Positions 2,884-51,152 of a stretch of 64,000 nt of DNA are shown piece by piece. The notes under the pieces are model-generated. The model saw only the letters and a program-made list of their open reading frames with translations. It made no database searches and was not told the DNA's origin. The number at the start of each line of letters is the position of its first letter. The stretch's first letter is position 1. The translations under genes were made by a program, and so were the position numbers. This stretch comes from Liolophura sinensis. Taxonomy: Eukaryota; Mollusca; Polyplacophora; Chitonida; Chitonidae. The stretch covers positions 10,294,001 to 10,358,000 of the forward strand of contig NC_088300.1 of NCBI RefSeq assembly GCF_032854445.1. The letters are read 5' to 3'.

Positions 2884-5800
2884 CTGAACAAAAAAAAATG
2901 ACTTCACAATACTTTAAGATTTACTACACTTTTAACTTGACCAATTCGACTCACATATAACTTGGCCAGTACAGCCCTCTGAATTGATGGTACTGTAAGT
3001 CTTCAACCTTTTCGCATGTTTGCAAGGTGATTATTTATGTCCTGAAGACTTATCAAACCAATGGCCAATTCAACTAATTTAGTTTTGTTTCCAAAAATCA
3101 AAAATAAAAATATGCATAAATTATGCATACATGAAAAGGTTGAGGAATAAGGGTATTCGGGTAATAATATGGATAATTAATTACCAAGCTGGGTGAAAAC
3201 CTGAATGACTTGGCTAGAAAAAGTCTCACTTTGATGGACATAGATTAAAAACAGGTCACCACAAGGACATTTCACGGTCAGCCTACATGTATCTGAATAT
3301 CAGCATGAATTTTACATATTGTAAATCTTCAACATTTTCAACCATTAAAACAATTTTTACGTGGAATTTATGCATACAATTATATGTTGGTGTGAAATTC
3401 TGGCTGCTGTATTAAAGTGGTTCACCCAGGTACTTGTCACCCATGAAGACTGACCTTGTCTAGTGTTTCCTTGGTGTGGGAGGCTGACAGACAGAATCGC
3501 ACTCTGGATTCAATGATGGGAGTGGCGGGAAACCCAACAACAACAACACCAAGGCCACGCTCCAAAGCCATCCGACCAAAAGCCCTGAGAAGGTGAAATG
3601 GTTTTTAAGGTGACATAGATTGCAGACATTACACACATATCTGGCAATTGCTCATACAGGACTTACATTAAATGCCTATGAATAACAACCTTGAATATAA
3701 CATGCCATCTGAGAAAATACCTAGGATTCCTTCTAAGCATGGAGGCTTCCTATTAATATGACTGCTTTAACATTTGAATTCCATAAAGGGAATTACAACA
3801 GTGAGGGACTAGAGAGCAGTATTGCAATGGAGTGACAGATGCATGTTCACTAAGACAATATGACACGTCTATCTGGCAAATGCTTTCTAACTTACCCTAC
3901 TTTTGAAGGTAAAAACAGCAGTAAAGGCACGACTGGCGAGTCTTTGTTGCCATAGATGATAAAGCCCATCTCCTGAAGACGTCTCCTCATGTAACGAGCG
4001 TTCCACCTCAGCTGTGCAATGCGTCTCTGGCCTAACAAGCAGAACAATGGCTAAGACGTCATTACGACTCTTCTTTGTCACATCTTCTACACCTTTTGTG
4101 GATATCACCAAGAAATATGACCTATGTCCACAGTGTCATGATGCCTCCAGCTCAGATTACATGTAATCTAATGTAAAAACTAGAAAATGTTAAACTTTTG
4201 TGTATAGTCTCTTAGAATTCAATTTTTACCAGATTTTACACATTTTCTGGACTTTTTTTTTATTGGGTTTAGTGTTATTTTATATTTATTTCATATGTCA
4301 GGTTTCTCAGTGGAGGAAACAGGGGTGCTCAAAGTAAACCATCGACTTTCACCAGGTAGCTGATAAACCTATTTGACTTGCTGGTGTCAAAGCCGTGAGC
4401 TGGATTTGAACAAGCGGCTTCACTGGTCAAGGGTCTGATAATCACAGCCAGCCAGTTCTATCACCATCTGAGTCATTGAGGCACCGTGACTGGAGTGTTA
4501 CTCTGTGAGCAGCTTGGACCTACCCAACACATCACAATACTGTAATTCAACTGTTTTTCATGTTTGGAAGGTGTTTTTTTTTTTCAAGCATATTCTGAAG
4601 GTATTATTTTGTGTAGGCTGATAACATTATACTTGTGCAAAGCCATGAAACTGGTCAATCCAACCAGTGTAGTTTTGTCTCCAAACTCAATTAAAAATGT
4701 GCATAAATTACACTGAAAGTTGTTCTTCCATAGGCAAAAAGGCTGAGGAATTAGGGTAATTATGAAAAGGTCTTGTCTAAAGTGAGGCCATCTACAAACC
4801 ACGGGCCGGTTTCATGAAGCGCATTTAGTTTTAAGCAGATCTTGGTTAAGTGCACTTGCTAGATACTGACTGACATAACTAGGTATGCTGTAGAGGTTTT
4901 ATAATACAGAGATGAGAGCTGACCTTCATCAGAGCCATCTTCACCCATGATGATCTTCATAGAGCTGATGATCTGCTGGGCGACGGGTGCTGGCATGACA
5001 GAGGAGTAGATGGAGCTGTGTGAGTAAACTCTCAGGTAGTTGATCAGCTTCTGAGAGAGGAAACAAAAGATATGTATCAACAACGTGTCATTGACCACAC
5101 TCAGGGGGAAAACACAAAAGTCAGTTTCTATGGGAATGATGGTTTTCAGGGAAAACATTGCTGACATTGCCCCTCAGGTTAATGATGCCCATATCCTATA
5201 AATTAGGACATCAAAATGGTCATCTTTTTAAAAAAATCAGAACCACATATATATAAACTGGACAAGAGTCAAAAATCTGTCTCCAGTCTAACTCATTTGA
5301 ACCAGGCTGATGAGCAACATCAACATAAGCTAGAAATGCATCAATCATTTTTTATCGTTTACATGAATATAAGTTTGGTAAAATATCAGGACAACAGTAT
5401 TCAAACATTATAAGCAAACACTAATGAATTGAGAATTATATAGGACAACCATACATCAAGAAAGTCCTGAATCTACGAGTCTAAAGATTTGGCCCCAAAT
5501 GTGAAAACTGACCTTTGTACCCCCAATGTAGCCACCAGCAGCACCAAAACTCTTGGTCAATGTCCCCATAAGGATGTCCACATCGTTTGGGTCCACTCCA
5601 AAGTAGTCCACGACACCTCTGCCTCGCAGACCAATCGCCCCGATACTGTGAGCCTCATCCAAGTACAGGTATGCTCTGTACTTCTTCTTCAGCCGTATTA
5701 CCTCATCCAGGCGCACAATGGAACCTTCCATACTGAGGAAATCACCAAGTACAAAGGGTGAATTACTCAAAGGTTGTCACACATACACAAAGCATATCAA

Positions 5801-8800
5801 CACTTATCCTGCATCAGACAAAATACTTCACCTTTCATCGGACAATAACGGTCACCTGGGGTACAGATATATGCTCGAATTCTGCAGACGACTTCAAATG
5901 TGTCTGATGAGTAGGTTATCTCCCTCTGTTGTCTTCCAACAATGGTCATATCCTTGAAGCGATTCACCTACACACTGGTCTTCTGCATTGTATAGAGGGG
6001 TCTTTGCAGGGCAAACTCATTACATGGTGACTCAGTGATAGGATACGCAAATATGTGGTGTCAGTAATCCTCATATTGGGCTCCCCTGACGCCTCGCCCA
6101 ACATGAGAATTATTGACATCTTATATTTGCATATCCTATCACTGATTCACCATGTAACTAATATTAGACTGACATATTGTTGCATGTCACTGAGAAGGTC
6201 TAACAGAAAAGTTCATGATTTACAGGCTGTCACACACACACAAGGGATATCAACACTTACAGATGGCCACTACTGCTACATGTCATAGAGAAGGTCTAAG
6301 AGAACAGCTCATGATTTACAGGCTGTCACACACACATACAAGACATATCAACACTTACAGATGGCCACTACTGCTGCATGTCACAGGGAAGGTTTCAGAG
6401 AACAGCTCATGATTTACAGGCTATCACAAACACACAAGGGATATCAACACTTACAGATGGCCACTACTGCTGCATGTCATTGACAAGGTCTAAGAGAACA
6501 GCTCAGGATTTACAGGCTGTCACACACACACACAAGACATATCAACACTTACAGAGAGCCACTACTGCTGCATGTCACTGAGAAGGTCTCAGAGAACAGC
6601 TCATGATTTACAGGCTATCACAAACACACAAGGGATATCAACACTTACAGATGGCCACTACTGCTGCATGTCATAGAGAAGGTCTCAGAGAACAGCTCAT
6701 GACTTACAGGCTGTCACACACACACACAAGACATATCAACACTTACAGATGGCAACTACTGCTGCATGTCATAGAGAAGGTCTCAGACAACAGCTCATGA
6801 TTTACAGGCTGTCACACACACACAAGACATATCAACACTTACAGAGAGCCACTACTGCTGCATGTCACTGAGAAGGTCTGAGAGAACAGCTCATGATTTA
6901 CAGGCTATCACAAACACACAAGGGATATCAACACTTACAGATGGCCACTACTGCTGCATGTCACAGGGAAGGTCTCAGAGAACAGCTCATGACTTACAGG
7001 CTGTCACACACACACACAAGGCATATCAACACTTACACATGGCCACTACTGCTGCATGTCACAGAGAAGGTCTCAGACAACAGCTCATGATTTACAGGCT
7101 GTCACACACACATACAAGACGTATCAACACTTACAGATGGCCACTACTGCTGCATGTCACAGAGAAGGTTTCAGAGAACAGCTCAGGATTTACAGGCTGT
7201 CACACACACATACAAGGCATATCAACACTTACAGATGGCCACTACTGCTGCATGTCACAGGGAAGGTCTCAGAGAACAGCTCATGATTTACAGGCTGTCA
7301 TACAGAGACAAACACACACACACAAGGCATATCAACACTTACAGATGGCCACTACTGCTGCATGGCATGGAGAAGGTCTCAGAGAACAGCTCACCATTTA
7401 AAGGCTGTCACACACACATACAAGGCATATCAACACTTACACATGGCCACTACTGCTACATGACACAGAGAAGGTATCAGAACAGCTCATGATTTACAGG
7501 CTGTCACACACACACATACAAGGCATATCAACACTTACACATGGCCACTACTGCTGCACGTCACTGAGAAGGTCTCAGAGAACATCTCATGATTTACAGG
7601 CTGTCACACACACACACACAAGGCATATCAACACTTACAGACAGCCACTACTGCTGCATGTCACTGACAAGGTCTCAGAGAACAGCTCATGATTTACAGG
7701 CTGTCACACACACACACACAAGGCATATCAACACTTACAGATGGCCACTACTGCTGCATGTCACTGAGAAGGTCTCAGAGAACAGCTCATGATTTACAGA
7801 CTGTCACACACTCATACAAGGCATATCAACACTTACAGACAGCCACTACTGCTGCATGTCATAGAGAAGGTCTCAGAGAACAGTTCATGATTTACAGGCT
7901 GTCACACACACACATACAAGGCATATCAACACTTACACATGGCCAATACTGCTACATGACACAGAGAAGGTATCAGAGAACAGCTCATGATTTACAGGCT
8001 GTCACACACACACATACAAGGCATATCAACACTTACAGATGGCCACTACTGCTGCATGTCACTGAGAAGGTCTCAGAGAACAGCTCATGATTTACAGACT
8101 GTCACACACTCATACAAGGCATATCAACACTTACAGACAGCCACTACTGCTGCATGTCATAGAGAAGGTCTCAGAGAACAGTTCATGATTTACAGGCTGT
8201 CACACACACACATACAAGGCATATCAACACTTACACATGGCCAATACTGCTACATGACACAGGGAAGGTCTCAGAGAACAGCTCATGATTTACAGGCTGT
8301 CACACATCCACACACACACACACACACGGCATACTAACACTTACAGACTAACACTACTGCTGCATGTCACAAAGAAGGTCTTAAAGAAAAGCTTTTCATC
8401 TGAAGTCATTTTAAAACCCACTTAAAAGAAAACTAAACATCAAATCACAATGTATCATCTACAAGTACATGTATTGTATTTTACAGGAACAACATGATCT
8501 CTCAGATGGTTTTTGGCCAATATTACTATCTTCATCTGAATTTACTGGATTTACTTGAAACAGGGTCATAAATGATGCATTAGAGCGGACAAGGGACAGA
8601 AGTATAGTGCAGCATCCATGTTGTAGTGTGTTGAAATGTTACCACATTGTCACAATGCAGTCATGCAGTTGTAATTTACTTATTTTCTGCTCTACGGAAG
8701 TCTGACAACTTCTGTGTGTACCTTTGTTCAATGAACTGGTAATTAACTGACTAACCTCCCTATAACACTGCACCACTAACATTTTGCCTCACAAACATGT

Positions 8801-19153: not shown

Positions 19154-19672
19154 ATGAGTAACATGGGGGATTTATACCCTTCGTCGACTCAGCCGGAGAG
19201 TAACAGTTATAGCAACGAAGATTTCGAGAAGGTTGACCCAGGCGATCTCGACCAGCAACCCGCCGAATCAGAGAGAGATCAACTTTCGGACCAAGTGCCG
19301 ACATCCACTGCTTTCTCCGGCGAAGAAGCCGAGGAAGATCGCTACGGTACTTCAGAAGCTACCCCAAATCTCGTTAGTTTTGGTGATGAACCGGTGTTAG
19401 AGGAACCTCAGTCCACCACCCCCTCTGCTCCTGAAGTAGGCGACTTCCCAAGTTTGGGCCAATACTCTGAGCCCGAACCCGAAGCTGAAGCGATCTCTCA
19501 CAACCCCTTTTCAGATCCAATCTCCTCAACAACAACAACAACTCCAATGCTTATGGCCTGGGAGAAGACGACAGGGATATTTTACAGCCAGAACCAATAT
19601 CTAATCTCCTAACAGAATCAACAGAAAGTAAAGAGTGGGAAGGGAAATCAGAAGGCTTGGCCATATCTGGAG
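19154..19672 (+). CDS. RTN: Reticulon exon 1, long isoform (one frame slip)
   Basis: It starts [20 protein letters not shown]. The ATG at 19154 is taken rather than the upstream in-frame ATG at 19112 because of context (AAAATGAG). The product is acidic and rich in Ser, Glu and Pro, with no domain, as is usual for reticulon N-termini. After NPFSDPISS the frame runs to a stop at 19610-19612. From the AAC run at 19528-19542, however, the next frame reads [19 protein letters not shown], then [18 protein letters not shown] and EGLAISG, to a donor at 19673 with the right phase. One base is therefore missing near 19522-19530, in or beside the triplet run. Confidence 0.8.
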
Positions 19673-46600: not shown

Positions 46601-49600
46601 ATGTTTACCTAAGATAAATGTTGTTTGTTACCTGCTTCTCATCCCTGTTATTCCCCACCACAATTTTTTGTTACGCCTGTGCTTGTCTCCCCTTCTGGTT
46701 GTCTTACCTGTGATTTTCCATCATGTATTGTGACACCTGTGCTTGTTTCCCCTCTAAATGTCTTACCTGTGATTTACCACTCATGTATTGTTACACCTGT
46801 GCTTGTCTCCCCTTCTGGTTGTCTTACCTGTGATTTTCCATCATGTATTGTTACAGCTATGCTTGTCTCCGATTCTGATGGTTTTACCTGTAATTAGCCA
46901 CCTTCATGTATTGATATCTGCAGTGTATGTGCTTGTCTCCATTCTGCAGTATTGGACCTGGTGTACTGGCAAGATGTCAAGAAGACAGGTGTGGTGTTTG
47001 GCTCGATGATGTTCCTGCTGCTTTCGCTGGCCTTCTTCTCGGTCCTCAGCGTGGTCGCTTACCTGTCGTTGGCCACCCTCACCATCACACTTAGCTTCCG
47101 TGTCTACAAGAATGTCCTACAGGCCGTGCAGAAAACTGGAGATCAGCATCCGTTTAAGTAAGTTTTTCCTGTTAGAGATTACCAACATGCACATGTAAGG
47201 GTCCTTTAATTTTGCCTAGTAAGCATGCCCAATGATGTTGACATATTAACTACATGTATGTGATAATTTTTAGAACTCTGCCTAGAGGCACACATGTGAG
47301 TTGTACAGTAGATACAACACATGAAGCTTTAAATCAGTTGTATTAAAATTGTGTAATATACAAGCAGTTCTTGAGAGATTCTGGACTCAATGAAAGTAGT
47401 TGTAAGGAATCTGCGTGACCTGCACATTACAGAATTGTTATGGTCTTGACAGGATTTACATGTAGCCTAGATACACTGTACATGGGTGAATTCTGGCACA
47501 TTTGTGCAGGACACATCTAACACATGATCAACACAAGCATGTGTTTTATACAATCAAAGGTTCCTCTCAAATGGCTGTTCTCAGCACTGTTACCATATAG
47601 CTTTCTTGCTGTCTTGCTGGTACACGTGTCAAGATAATTGATCCATAAATTTTCCTATGGCTTACAACCCCAAATTCTTCAATGTTCAGTGAGCAAAGTA
47701 AGAACTGAAAGAAAAAATACTTAGGTAATTTGTATCAAAGATATTTCCCGTGGTGTAATATGTATTAAAACTCTGGTTTTATTAGGGGTTTTGTTTCTAC
47801 GTTATGTGTTGTGCAGTCCCCAAAAATGTGACTTACCCCATGATGTACATGTGCAACCACACACTGTTTGATGTGTGACTTGACTCTCAACAACAACAAC
47901 AACACACCCCCACCCCCCACCCATTGCCTCACGCTTCTACAAACTTTTAGATGTATGAGTTGAGTACACCACATCCCCCAAAGACACAGGTGATGTACAC
48001 ACACCATTACAAACTGTTATATCTATGAGATGTATTATGTTCCTTGTTAAGGGGTGCTGAATGGAGGACTGATCATTTGTAAGTTTACCAAGTGTTGATG
48101 CATTGTTTATGTTTTTCTCTGAGCAATTTTTATTTCTTTTTTAATTTATTTAACATTGACTTGCATTTAAATGCTTGATTTTCATTTAAAGGTTTATCAT
48201 TCAACAGTTCACTATTTTGATTAGCACAAGTACATTGAAGATTGAATTTTCATTTCATGATAATGAGATGTAGTACAGCTGAACAAAAACTCTTAAAAAT
48301 AAAATGTGTGGAATCATAATTGCTGGCTTTTTTCAGTTAATTTCTTTGAATTATGGCATGAGCCCTATATATTATGCTGAGTGAGTATGTGGTGTTCTTC
48401 TTCAGGATTATCTTTGAAATCGTTCAAATCAGCTCAAGTGAAAAGTTGTCCTTGTTTACATTCTTGGAAAGATCCCTGAAATGCCAAATGTACTTTTGTG
48501 TGATTGTAGACAGTACCTGGACATGGACATTAACCTGCCAGAAGAGAAGGTTCAGCTGGCTGTAGAGAACATCGTCAAGCATGTGAACAACACCAGCCGA
48601 GAGGTCAGACGGCTCTTCCTCGTCGAGGATCTCGTAGATTCCATCAAGGTTAGTCATTATATCCCCACGTGAACAATGTAGACCAGGTCAGACAGCTTTT
48701 CCTCGTCGAGCATCTCCTAGATTCCACCAAGGTTAGTCATTATATCCCCACGTGAACAGTGTAGACCAGGTCAGACAGCTTTTCCTCGTCGAGCATCTCC
48801 TAGATTCCACCAAGGTTAGTCATTATATCCCCACGTGAACATTGTAGACCAGGTCAGACAGCTTTTCCTCGTCGAGCATCTCCTAGATTCCACCAAGGTT
48901 AGTCATTATATCCCCACGTGAACAGTGTAGACCAGGTCAGACAGCTTTTCCTCATCGAGCATCTCATAGATTCCACCAAGGTTAGTCATTATACTCTCGT
49001 GAACAACACGACCAGGAGGTCAAATGGCTCTTCCTCATTGAGGATCTCGCATATTCTATCGCTATATCCTCCCGTGAACAGTGTAGGCCAGGAGGTCAGA
49101 GCTTTCCTCGTTGAGGATCTCGTAGATTCCGTCAAGGTTAGTCATTATATCCCCACGTGAACAATGTAGACCAGGAGGCCAGACGGCTCTTCCTCATTGA
49201 GGATCTTGTAGATTCCATCAAGGTTAGTCATTATATCCCCATATCAACAGTGTAGACCAGGAGGTCAGACAGCTTTTCCTCATTGAGGATCTCGTAGATT
49301 CCATCAAGGTTAGTCATTATACCCTCGTGAACAATACCAGCCCAGGAGTTGGGCAGCTCTTCCTCATTGTGAATCTCTTAGATTCTGTCAAGGTTTGTCA
49401 TTATATCTGCCTGAAGAGCCAAGTCAGTGTACCTACGTTGCAGTCTTCAAGGACAAGGTATTCACTAAATTGGTAGTAATTAAATTCTACATTGTATATA
49501 TAGTGAAATACAAATTTAGAGAACATGTAAAACACTGATGGTGGTGAAGTCCATGTGGGGCAAAATCATGCCGTGTGATGCTATGGATCCTGACTTAAAC

Positions 49601-51152
49601 AATAGAACAATTGTTGACATGTTTGTATGTTTCAGTTTGGATTGTTCCTGTGGGTTTTGACATACATTGGAGCCTGGTTTAATGGAATGACCATCATCAT
49701 CCTAGGTAAGAAGTGCGTGTGGAAGCAGCACTGTAGATATTGGCACGATACTGCTACAGAGAGGACGCTGTGACAGCACTGATTTGTGGGTGAAAGTCAT
49801 CAGGTTGTTTAAGAACAAGTCCACTTAGGTGTTGCCTAAATGGAACACCTATGAGAAGGATATATCACATTGCCCACATCACTATCCTTCAGGCAATAGA
49901 TAAAGTATTAAGGTTACATGACTTATTCAGGTATTTGAAAGTGTAACTTTTGTACATTTTATGTTTGATTTTAGAGACAAATCTACATTGGTTGAATTGG
50001 CCAATTTCAGGACTGCAAAAATATAATTCAAATCAATCTACACAGTATAATGCCTTGAGAATACGCTTGAATAAACATGTTGCAAACATGTAAAAAGGTT
50101 AAAGAATAACAGTAGTAGACATTTCTGATTTTTTCTATATTGAAAAATCAGTTTGGCCAAGCATTACAGGGCTTGCCTTTGCAATTGATAGCTGGCTGTT
50201 GAGATGAGCTGTTTGATGGATATTTTTGTTTTTCAGGAGTTGTTACCATTTTCACATTACCCAAGTTCTATGAAACATACAAGGTAAGAATCAATATTCA
50301 CAACTCATTCATGGGTCTTCAGTGACCGAGGTGGTTAGCGTGCCAGCACGGCGCAACAACTGACGAGTCAATCTAGTCGCTCTGAGGTCAAATCAAGCTC
50401 ATGCTGGGTTCTTCTCCAGCTGTATGTTGGAAAGTCTGGCAACATCCTGCAGATGATCATGACTTTCCCCTGGACTCTGCCCACTTTCCTCCCACCATAA
50501 GGTTGAAGGGTATAATTCATGTAGTAACTAATATTAGTATATTTGCCCCCAAAGTAGACTAAAAAGTGCTTTTGTAGAGAGACATAAAGATCATAAGATA
50601 TTACTTCTGGTTCTGAAACTGAAGTGTTAGCGGTGGGATATCAGCCTACCTTCCAACTAAACCTTACTATTAAACCCAAATACAGTATTTCATGGTTAGA
50701 TGCAATTTTACAGAAAGCTTTGATGTGAGGAGATTTCTCCTAAACTTTACTACATAGTTCTCTACTAGCTCCGTGATGACAAACATTGAAACACCAGTGC
50801 AGCTATTATTTTTTATTCTTTTTCAGACTCAGATTGACAACTACCTGCATCTGGCCAGGACAAACATTAACAAGGTCTTAACTCAGTAAGTTGACATTCT
50901 GCTACGCTTTCTTGATATCCGTACATGTCTTCCCAGTGAATATTAATGGGAATATTTCTCATGACACACTGCGTTCCAAAACGTACGAAATATGAAACTT
51001 TCCTGTGTTAAACATTGTAAGCCAACACATCAGATGTTCTTTGTAACACTGGCCTCTATCATTCATTATGTACTGAATACAAGGATTTGTTCTATTTCAG
51101 AATTAAATCAAAGATCCCTTTCCCTAAGAAGAAGGATGTAAAGAAAGAGTAA
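19154..51152 (+). CDS. RTN: Reticulon, whole gene (long and short isoform routes)
   Basis: Reticulons insert two long hydrophobic hairpins into the ER membrane and stabilise tubules and sheet edges. Exons: 19154-19672, 22859-22888, 36404-36556 (long N-terminus), 42395-42506 (alternative first exon), and the shared homology domain 46950-47157, 48510-48648, 49636-49705, 50237-50283, 50827-50885, 51101-51152. Every exon before 46950 ends in phase 1, so each can join the domain exon. The short form totals 687 nt (228 residues). The long form would be about 425 residues once a one-base slip in exon 1 is allowed for. The domain carries [13 protein letters not shown], two hydrophobic stretches and the [14 protein letters not shown] region. 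Invertebrates usually have one RTN gene; I cannot assign a vertebrate number. Confidence 0.94.
19673..22858 (+). other. Reticulon intron 1
   Basis: Non-coding, AT-rich, 3.2 kb. No repeat family or exon is recognised. Confidence 0.75.
22859..22888 (+). CDS. RTN: Reticulon micro-exon 2
   Basis: Thirty bases between TTGTTTTAG and GTGAGT, phase 1 to 1. It encodes [10 protein letters not shown] plus a split codon. It joins exon 1 as ...[12 protein letters not shown]. Skipping it keeps the frame. The support is the phase agreement and good splice sites. There is no strong homology, so some doubt remains. Confidence 0.6.
23561..23718 (+). mobile_element. tRNA-derived SINE, opposite orientation
   Basis: Reads as the reverse complement of the copies at 16588 and 23933: 'ggccgtacgtgggaaggtct', 'gccagcaacctgcggatggt', 'cgtgggtttcccttgggct', 'taatgctggccgccgtcc', ending 'caccaatcaaataaataaa'. 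The tRNA-like head is missing on the left, consistent with 5' truncation. Confidence 0.88.
23933..24201 (-). mobile_element. tRNA-derived SINE, full length
   Basis: The most complete copy. TATTTATTTATTTG tail at left, body with 'ccagcattatggtggg' and 'gcaggttgctggcagacc', tRNA-like head at right. On the minus strand the head has box A TGGCTCAGTTGG and a box-B-like GAGTTCAAGTC, the internal RNA polymerase III promoter. It faces the copy at 23561 across about 215 bp. Confidence 0.92.
24994..25180 (-). mobile_element. tRNA-derived SINE, head-truncated
   Basis: (ATTT)n tail at left, then 'ttgatcagtgtttt', 'gacggcagccaacattatgg', 'accatctgcaggttgctgg' and 'gctggacttgaactcgcatc'. The body has an internal deletion between the 'gggaggaaaccc' and 'acaacc' parts, and the tRNA head is lost beyond 25180. 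Confidence 0.88.
28883..28930. repeat. Short tandem triplicate
   Basis: Three copies of a 17-base unit 'gatgatgcatgcacaa' in a row, containing the palindrome TGCATGCA. Confidence 0.85.
33429..33470 (+). mobile_element. SINE scrap
   Basis: 'ttcctcccaccatattgctg' followed by 'gctgccatcgtataa' matches the reverse-oriented SINE body over some 40 bases. Short and old. Confidence 0.5.
34230..34314. mobile_element. MITE-like element, partial copy 4
   Basis: Shares 'tagttttgtcggcaaaatca', 'tgcataagtcacattgaaag' and the right end 'gattgaggagtta' with copies 1 and 2. The left half is absent or too diverged. Confidence 0.55.
36404..36556 (+). CDS. RTN: Reticulon exon 3, long isoform
   Basis: 153 nt, acceptor GCCCATCAG, donor GTAAGT, phase 1 in and 1 out. 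It encodes [18 protein letters not shown], then [18 protein letters not shown] and [15 protein letters not shown]. Acidic, proline-rich linker sequence, with a CSLC pair near the end. It joins micro-exon 2 (…VDPRE) and the domain exon (…STMLLDLVYW) in frame, and skipping it also keeps the frame. No domain is recognised. Confidence 0.72.
36557..42394 (+). other. Reticulon intron 3
   Basis: 5.8 kb of non-coding AT-rich DNA without a recognised repeat family. The right part must hold the promoter of the alternative first exon at 42395, but no core element can be singled out with confidence. Confidence 0.7.
42395..42506 (+). CDS. RTN: Reticulon alternative first exon (short isoform)
   Basis: 112 nt from ATG to donor GTGGGT, phase 1 out. 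It encodes [20 protein letters not shown], then [17 protein letters not shown]. Spliced to 46950 it gives ...MCTPVLDLVYW, a 228-residue protein, the usual size of a C-type reticulon. Upstream 'ctgctgcag' could be an acceptor for a 5' UTR exon. Read-through in the phase of the other exons hits TGA, so this is a first coding exon and not an internal one. Confidence 0.82.
43040..43770. repeat. Minisatellite, ~24-30-bp TTGTAATGGG units
   Basis: The core 'gttgtaatggg' recurs about every 24-30 bp with variable inserts such as 'catgcattcct', 'tgtacatacattgt' and 'cggacattcat'. A higher-order unit of four to five cores repeats (near 43245, 43343, 43434, 43567). Several long minus-strand open frames of 'HYN' repeats come from this and are not genes. 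Confidence 0.93.
44721..44900. repeat. Recent 87-bp tandem duplication
   Basis: Two adjacent copies of 87 bases starting 'tacatg(c/t)actgttagtgc' and ending 'ggtttggaacatacatg' differ at about two positions. The near identity points to a very recent event or allelic merging. Confidence 0.92.
46650..46949 (+). repeat. 60-bp tandem array ending in the domain-exon splice acceptor
   Basis: Units of almost exactly 60 bp with landmarks 'tgcttgtctccccttctgg', 'ttgtcttacctgtgatttt' and 'catgtattgttacacctg', near 46680, 46740, 46800, 46860 and a partial one at 46928. The partial last unit, 'gtgcttgtctccattctgcag', is the polypyrimidine tract and AG of the exon at 46950. Other units carry the pyrimidine tract but not the AG at the matching spot. 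Confidence 0.88.
46950..47157 (+). CDS. RTN: Reticulon homology domain exon 1 (first hairpin)
   Basis: 208 nt, phase 1 in and 2 out. It encodes [20 protein letters not shown], then [37 protein letters not shown] and [12 protein letters not shown](L/V)YWRD.K.TG followed by a hydrophobic stretch of about 35 residues is the signature start of all reticulons. Coding GC is clearly higher than in the flanking introns. Confidence 0.97.
47158..48509 (+). other. Reticulon intron between domain exons 1 and 2
   Basis: Non-coding. A short AAC run followed by a C-rich tract lies at 47887-47921. Nothing else is recognised. Confidence 0.75.
48510..48648 (+). CDS. RTN: Reticulon homology domain exon 2 (loop)
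   Basis: 139 nt, phase 2 in and 0 out. It encodes [19 protein letters not shown], then [20 protein letters not shown] and EDLVDSIK. This is the hydrophilic 66-residue-type loop between the two hairpins (cf. Nogo-66 in vertebrate RTN4). The last ~65 bases and the donor are the source of the tandem array that follows. Confidence 0.97.
48649..49410 (+). repeat. Tandem array of exon end plus splice donor (9 extra copies, ~83 bp)
   Basis: After the true donor at 48649, nine more copies of 'exon end + donor + 38-bp spacer' follow at about 83-bp spacing. Copy donors lie at 48732, 48815, 48898, 48981 and then about 49137, 49222, 49307 and 49392; the fifth copy (about 49019-49094) lost its donor. Copies 1-3 are almost identical and copies 4-9 more diverged. 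In copies 1-4 and 6-8 the exon part stays open in the original phase: [15 protein letters not shown] in copies 1-3, [15 protein letters not shown] in 4, [14 protein letters not shown] in 6, [15 protein letters not shown] in 7, [15 protein letters not shown] in 8. Each is preceded by 'ccag' or 'ccaggag', so each looks like a 42-45-nt mini-exon. The spacer contains an in-frame TGA. Confidence 0.93.
49411..49635 (+). other. Remainder of the intron after the donor array
   Basis: Plain intron sequence leading to the acceptor 'tatgtttcag' before 49636. Confidence 0.7.
49636..49705 (+). CDS. RTN: Reticulon homology domain exon 3 (second hairpin)
   Basis: 70 nt, phase 0 in and 1 out. It encodes [19 protein letters not shown], then IIIL and a split Gly. 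First half of the second hydrophobic hairpin; the W..TY.GA.FNG.T pattern is typical of the family. Confidence 0.96.
49918..50113. mobile_element. MITE-like element, copy 5
   Basis: Same orientation as copy 3: 'gattttagagacaaatctac', 'gaattggccaatttcagga' and the right end 'gcaaacatgtaaaaaggtta' then 'aagaataacagta'. The left inverted end is weak. Located between domain exons 3 and 4. Confidence 0.6.
50237..50283 (+). CDS. RTN: Reticulon homology domain exon 4
   Basis: 47 nt, phase 1 in and 0 out. It encodes [16 protein letters not shown]. End of the second hairpin; F(T/S).P..YE.Y.. is strongly conserved in reticulons. Confidence 0.97.
50284..50826 (+). other. Reticulon intron between domain exons 4 and 5
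   Basis: Contains a SINE copy (50311-50505) that begins only 28 bp after the donor. The rest is unremarkable. Confidence 0.8.
50311..50505 (+). mobile_element. tRNA-derived SINE, plus orientation
   Basis: The tRNA-like head comes first on the plus strand ('cagtgaccgaggtggttagc', 'gtgccagcacggcgcaa', 'gaggtcaaatcaagctcatg'), then the body in reverse order compared with the copy at 16588 ('gcaacatcctgcagatgat', 'ctttcctcccaccataa'). The tail end is missing. Confidence 0.85.
50827..50885 (+). CDS. RTN: Reticulon homology domain exon 5
   Basis: 59 nt, phase 0 in and 2 out. It encodes [19 protein letters not shown] and a split Gln. The QID.Y..LA...I part is the amphipathic helix region that follows the second hairpin. 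Confidence 0.97.
51101..51152 (+). CDS. RTN: Reticulon last exon
   Basis: 52 nt ending TAA. It encodes [21 protein letters not shown]....K is the family C-terminus. The lysine-rich end has lysines at -2 and -3 and so resembles, but does not strictly match, the dilysine ER-retrieval signal. Confidence 0.97.

Follow-up and report, generated by a model that had tools for sequence, protein, structure and literature searches.

The end of a reticulon exon, together with its splice donor, is repeated nine more times in the intron that follows, forming a minisatellite whose unit spans the exon–intron boundary. Very probably this is a mirage-type array that stays intronic, with the native donor mainly used and the copies drifting neutrally. 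The name 'mirage' was coined in amphioxus for tandem repeats lying over exon–intron boundaries (excerpts of PMC3087553 and PMC3902484), and we write 'mirage-type' here because the present array departs from those in its taxon and not in its build. Arrays of this kind offer natural tests of donor choice by the spliceosome where many identical donors are present, and they bear on the proposal that boundary repeats seed new introns.

The reticulon gene and its exons

The window, a stretch of 64,000 nucleotides, lies on contig C6 of a 609-Mb assembly. The gene at 46950-50283 is a reticulon, with a reticulon homology domain that scores above the PF02453 cut-off: a conceptual join of four exons reached 142.2 bits (cut-off 31.8) over positions 1-147 of the 157 in the profile, the first residue of the protein query being read across the acceptor, and a profile search of the exon 1 region matched PF02453 positions 1-64 at 46949-47134. 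The exons and the parts of the array are as follows.

46950..47157, plus strand: reticulon-domain exon 1 (first hairpin), donor AA|GTAAGT; splice sites read from sequence
48510..48648, plus strand: reticulon-domain exon 2, native donor AAG|GTTAGT at 48648|48649; part of the join that scores against PF02453
48583..48668, plus strand: native unit c0, 66 nt at the end of exon 2 and 20 nt at the start of its intron
48669..48998, plus strand: copies c1-c4 (83, 83, 83 and 81 bp), the youngest block; AG, 15 open codons, AAG|GTTAGT
48670..48672, plus strand: spacer TGA, reached after VSHYIPT if the native donor is skipped; read from sequence
48999..49073, plus strand: copy c5 (75 bp), decayed and without its donor
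49074..49326, plus strand: copies c6-c8 (83, 87 and 83 bp); AG, 14-15 open codons, AAG|GTTAGT
49327..49411, plus strand: copy c9, the most diverged donor-bearing copy, donor GTTTGT
49636..49705, plus strand: reticulon-domain exon 3, preceded by the acceptor TATGTTTCAG
50237..50283, plus strand: reticulon-domain exon 4, its peptide following a split G codon

Two further features of the window may concern this gene. A separate tandem array (60-bp unit, 3.8 copies, 46668-46895) ends about 55 bp upstream of exon 1. Far upstream, a Met-started open frame at 19154-19612, acidic, rich in Ser/Thr and without a Pfam match, could be an N-terminal exon of the reticulon.

Anatomy of the array

TRF reports an 83-bp unit in 9.7 copies at 48602-49407 (score 889), in keeping with the initial annotation, which had the end of exon 2 and its donor repeated nine more times. 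The nine extra copies follow the native donor at a spacing of 75-87 bp and reach about 49411. Each unit corresponds to the final 66 nt of exon 2 and the initial 20 nt of its intron, with starts at 48583 (the native exon end), 48669, 48752, 48835, 48918, 48999, 49074, 49157, 49244 and 49327; the exon end is indeed copied, as had been claimed, but the unit extends some 20 nt further upstream in the exon than was proposed. A DNA search of the genome, which skips very common words, matched the array nowhere else.

The initial annotation had also described seven copies with an AG, an in-phase frame of 14 or 15 codons and an intact donor, and all seven were recovered: in c1-c4, c6, c7 and c8 an in-phase AG precedes 14-15 open codons and the native AAG|GTTAGT follows unchanged, with intron starts at 48732, 48815, 48898 and 48981 in the first four and at 49137, 49223 and 49309 in the other three, the frame of c6 carrying a 3-nt deletion. 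From donor to next AG, neighbouring copies lie 38 nt apart, the intron length given previously, and read-through past the native donor runs through VSHYIPT into the TGA at 48670-48672, again as described. In c5 the donor and the end of the copied 45-mer are deleted, and c9 has no in-phase AG ahead of its 15 codons and one inside them, at 49356.

Relationships among the copies

Turnover is recent in copies c1-c4. Any two of the first three are separated by a single difference in 83 positions, which agrees with the earlier view that they are almost identical and that the array is still being homogenised, and the exon part of c4 is close to theirs (60-61 of 63 identical). The intron end of c4 is like that of c8 (17 of 18) and the c4/c5 junction is similar to the c8/c9 junction, as expected from the duplication of a block of several units. 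At the distal end, c9 has an identity of 68-70% with the other copies in its exon part, and of 77% with the native exon. A tree-based count places three replacements in the copied peptide, D to H, V to L and I to T, in the ancestor of c1-c4; as these four share a recent ancestor, they are not four independent cases of a kept frame.

We suggest that an 86-bp segment across the exon 2/intron boundary was tandemly duplicated and seeded the minisatellite, which would then have expanded and been partly re-homogenised via slippage or unequal exchange. The extra copies all fall within the intron. The native donor, alone in linking the open upstream exon straight to exon 3 with no stop in between, most likely dominates and yields nearly all functional mRNA. 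Splicing is presumed normal, and occasional transcripts from a downstream donor would carry the TGA and are expected to be degraded. Signs of decay are present among the copies: the lost donor of c5, the changed donor of c9 and the frame deletion of c6.

A second array and a survey of other loci

At least one other array in the genome is built like that of the reticulon gene. At a locus on C11 (L073, near 29213460) the end of a Ral exon and its donor, CTGCAGAACTTAG|GTGAGT, occur five times at 34-35 bp spacing, the donor reading GTGAAT in one of the five; the best match of the translation is Ral-A, over 70 of 70 residues, where the donor interrupts the 70th codon and the first intron base was used to complete it.

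L073:1699-1873: Ral boundary-spanning minisatellite, five 34-35 bp units over exon end and donor

This case emerged from a survey of 74 out of 78 loci, 72 of them non-reticulon, that left out the haemocyanin (L017-L018) and mitochondrial (L019-L020) loci. The 72 were the best-scoring 14 of 25 globin, 30 of 138 kinase and 28 of 150 Ras-family matches, some of them related. A TRF array of period at least 12 touched the domain match in 5/72 loci, and one, L073, was a clear donor-spanning case; 1/72 is a rough figure that refers to domain hits rather than annotated exons, many of the kinase hits being long single frames. At L040, L057 and L064 the TRF arrays that touch the match span 29-46 bases, with about two copies each. 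A ~30-bp-unit minisatellite at L066:1902-2183 appears to cross the end of a Ras-family coding frame, and an intronic 29/87-bp array at L072:1691-2483, excluded from the boundary-spanning count as intronic, abuts the acceptor of an exon whose gene, of the Ras family, runs on the minus strand of the locus. The L066 array lies within 150 bases of the match, and so do arrays in L006, L012 and L074, which apparently copy no exon edge.

Do the copies take part in splicing?

The initial annotation read the kept open frames as a sign of mini-exons, that is, of single copies spliced in as in-frame exons that would add 14-15 residues to the reticulon's inter-hairpin loop. The in-phase AG, open frame and donor of 7/9 copies are what such exons would need, but the open frames are expected by chance, since of the 135 single-base changes that the native 45-mer can undergo only 3 give a stop; in simulations on the seven full-length 45-mers (c1-c4, c7, c8 and c9, with c5 and c6 left out), a random copy at the observed divergence stayed open with a chance of 0.78-0.92. 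Nor did the copied 45-mers show an excess of synonymous change, the lack of which the initial annotation had named among the signs against its reading: parsimony on the copy tree gave 6/22 synonymous changes against a neutral expectation of 24% (one-sided P = 0.46), so that no peptide constraint was detected on them, in a count of little power given its small numbers and a weakly supported tree (0.75-0.92, one node 0). That count leaves c5 out of the tree, skips the gap codons of c6 and excludes changes on the native exon tip (1 synonymous, 2 other). Pairwise dN/dS among the copies ranged from 0.21 to 1.62 where computable, and those below 0.6 all come from pairs that include c7, c9 or the native exon. 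The putative acceptors look poor as well. The AG of the copies derives from the exon's own GAGAGGTC and has no pyrimidine tract, with 33-44% pyrimidines in the 18 bases before the copy frames vs 61% at the native acceptor, and in c1-c4 a further AG (GTAG) lies five bases upstream. Between neighbouring copies the introns would be 38 nt only; splicing of non-adjacent copies would give a longer intron, yet would still rely on an apparently poor acceptor. We therefore disfavour the mini-exon reading, which on these sequence features appears highly improbable.

The copied donors deserve separate consideration, as a row of identical donors could in principle compete. In this reading the copies would act as decoys for U1, some transcripts would include the spacer TGA and be degraded, and copy number would tune reticulon output. 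The exact native donor is kept in 7/9 copies. On the tree, a single change falls in the first 13 intron bases where 5.8 would be expected (P = 0.012), less variation than in the 45-mer, for a 13-base limit that was set post hoc, after the alignment had been seen. Against this, the donor hexamer GTTAGT alone is not significantly conserved (P = 0.17), nor are all 20 intron bases (P = 0.47). Column-wise Fisher tests, run on four sets of copies, reached P = 0.046 twice, 0.051 once and 0.18 once over the 13 bases; over the 20 bases P was 0.25-0.57. Together these values may be taken as a hint of selection on the copied donors, not as a case for it. Any downstream donor used from the native exon brings in the TGA at 48670-48672, at least 59 nt before the new junction, and every read-through from that exon meets it. 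Nonsense-mediated decay follows a distance rule between a stop and the downstream junction, so mRNA made with a downstream donor is predicted to decay. Also weighing against decoys are the loss of the donor in c5 and its alteration in c9, and the amphioxus arrays, whose copied splice signals are described, in excerpts, as leaving regular splicing undisturbed (PMC3087553, PMC3902484). On balance we consider donor decoys unlikely. More speculative still is that the variable-number donor array is a rheostat, in which extra donors would divert U1 into the stop-containing extension and the length of the array would set reticulon output; this we hold to be quite improbable. If it were true, array length, able to differ between individuals or cells, would govern reticulon output, and with the Ral array there would be a class of length-tuned genes in this mollusc.

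Finally, the assembler could have inflated or misordered the number of repeats, tandem arrays being prone to error and the mitochondrial genome of the same assembly seeming concatemeric. The copies, however, differ at many positions and their relationships are ordered, the array occupies less than 1 kb inside a contig that spans 82 Mb or more (a match lies at C6:82167648), and the Ral array is an independent second case in the genome. An assembly artefact thus seems extremely unlikely.

Comparison with known boundary-spanning repeats

In the portions of PMC3087553 and PMC3902484 that describe them, amphioxus mirages have units of 10-160 bp and occur in Adh3 and globin genes, with further cases in TnC and PGBD5; AG/GT signals are copied in many, not all, repeats, inner units are homogenised while the ends of the cluster are left out, globin haplotypes vary in copy number, Adh3 is somatically unstable, and splicing is reported as normal in Adh3, the globins and TnC. 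The reticulon array is like these, as far as those portions go, in that its unit spans the boundary and falls within 10-160 bp, splice signals are copied (7/9), and inner copies evolve in concert (c1-c3) beside a diverged end copy (c9). It differs in that its host is a mollusc rather than a cephalochordate and the gene is a reticulon. Excerpts of PMC2206037, on amphioxus huntingtin, contained no boundary-spanning case.

Excerpts of PMC2812944 report that novel introns can arise from tandem repeats at boundaries in human duplicated genes. With these internal repeats of human paralogs the reticulon array shares its place at a boundary, where such repeats can alter splicing; the human cases, as excerpted, concern recent segmental duplications with transcript-supported novel introns, whereas here we have a single gene in genomic sequence (PMC2812944). 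Intron gain via tandem genomic duplication over AG/GT sites is also discussed in PMC3087553. As in that process, the stretch duplicated in the reticulon gene holds potential splice sites; unlike it, the copies fall in an existing intron and no new intron is seen. Potato RdRp is said to be a case of intron gain by tandem genomic duplication (PMC4974935). Our literature search found no earlier report of such arrays in molluscs or in reticulon, which leaves absence from print unproven. Boundary-spanning minisatellites, which the literature we found describes for amphioxus and some human duplicated genes, now have two cases in one mollusc genome.

Other features of the window and genome

Elsewhere in the window, a 98-bp unit is repeated 21.6 times at 6181-8306, and an aminotransferase-class frame on the minus strand (5456-5776, PF00155 match) lies some 400 bp away. 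On contig C8, eight matches to PF14830 (haemocyanin domain) in a row mark an eight-unit molluscan-type haemocyanin gene, one unit of which has haemocyanins, KLH1 included, as its best PDB matches; this haemocyanin family marks molluscs, so the host genome is a mollusc's. An amphioxus origin was considered and set aside on the strength of this cluster; a PF01353 (GFP) search found nothing, an uninformative result because no control gave a signal. C99 carries COX1 seven times, about 15.5 kb apart, and C632 carries it once, with TGA inside the frame as in a mitochondrial code, and the mitochondrial genome seems to have been assembled as a concatemer. A cluster of globin exons at C6:69353344-69458344 holds 8 of the 25 globin matches listed genome-wide.
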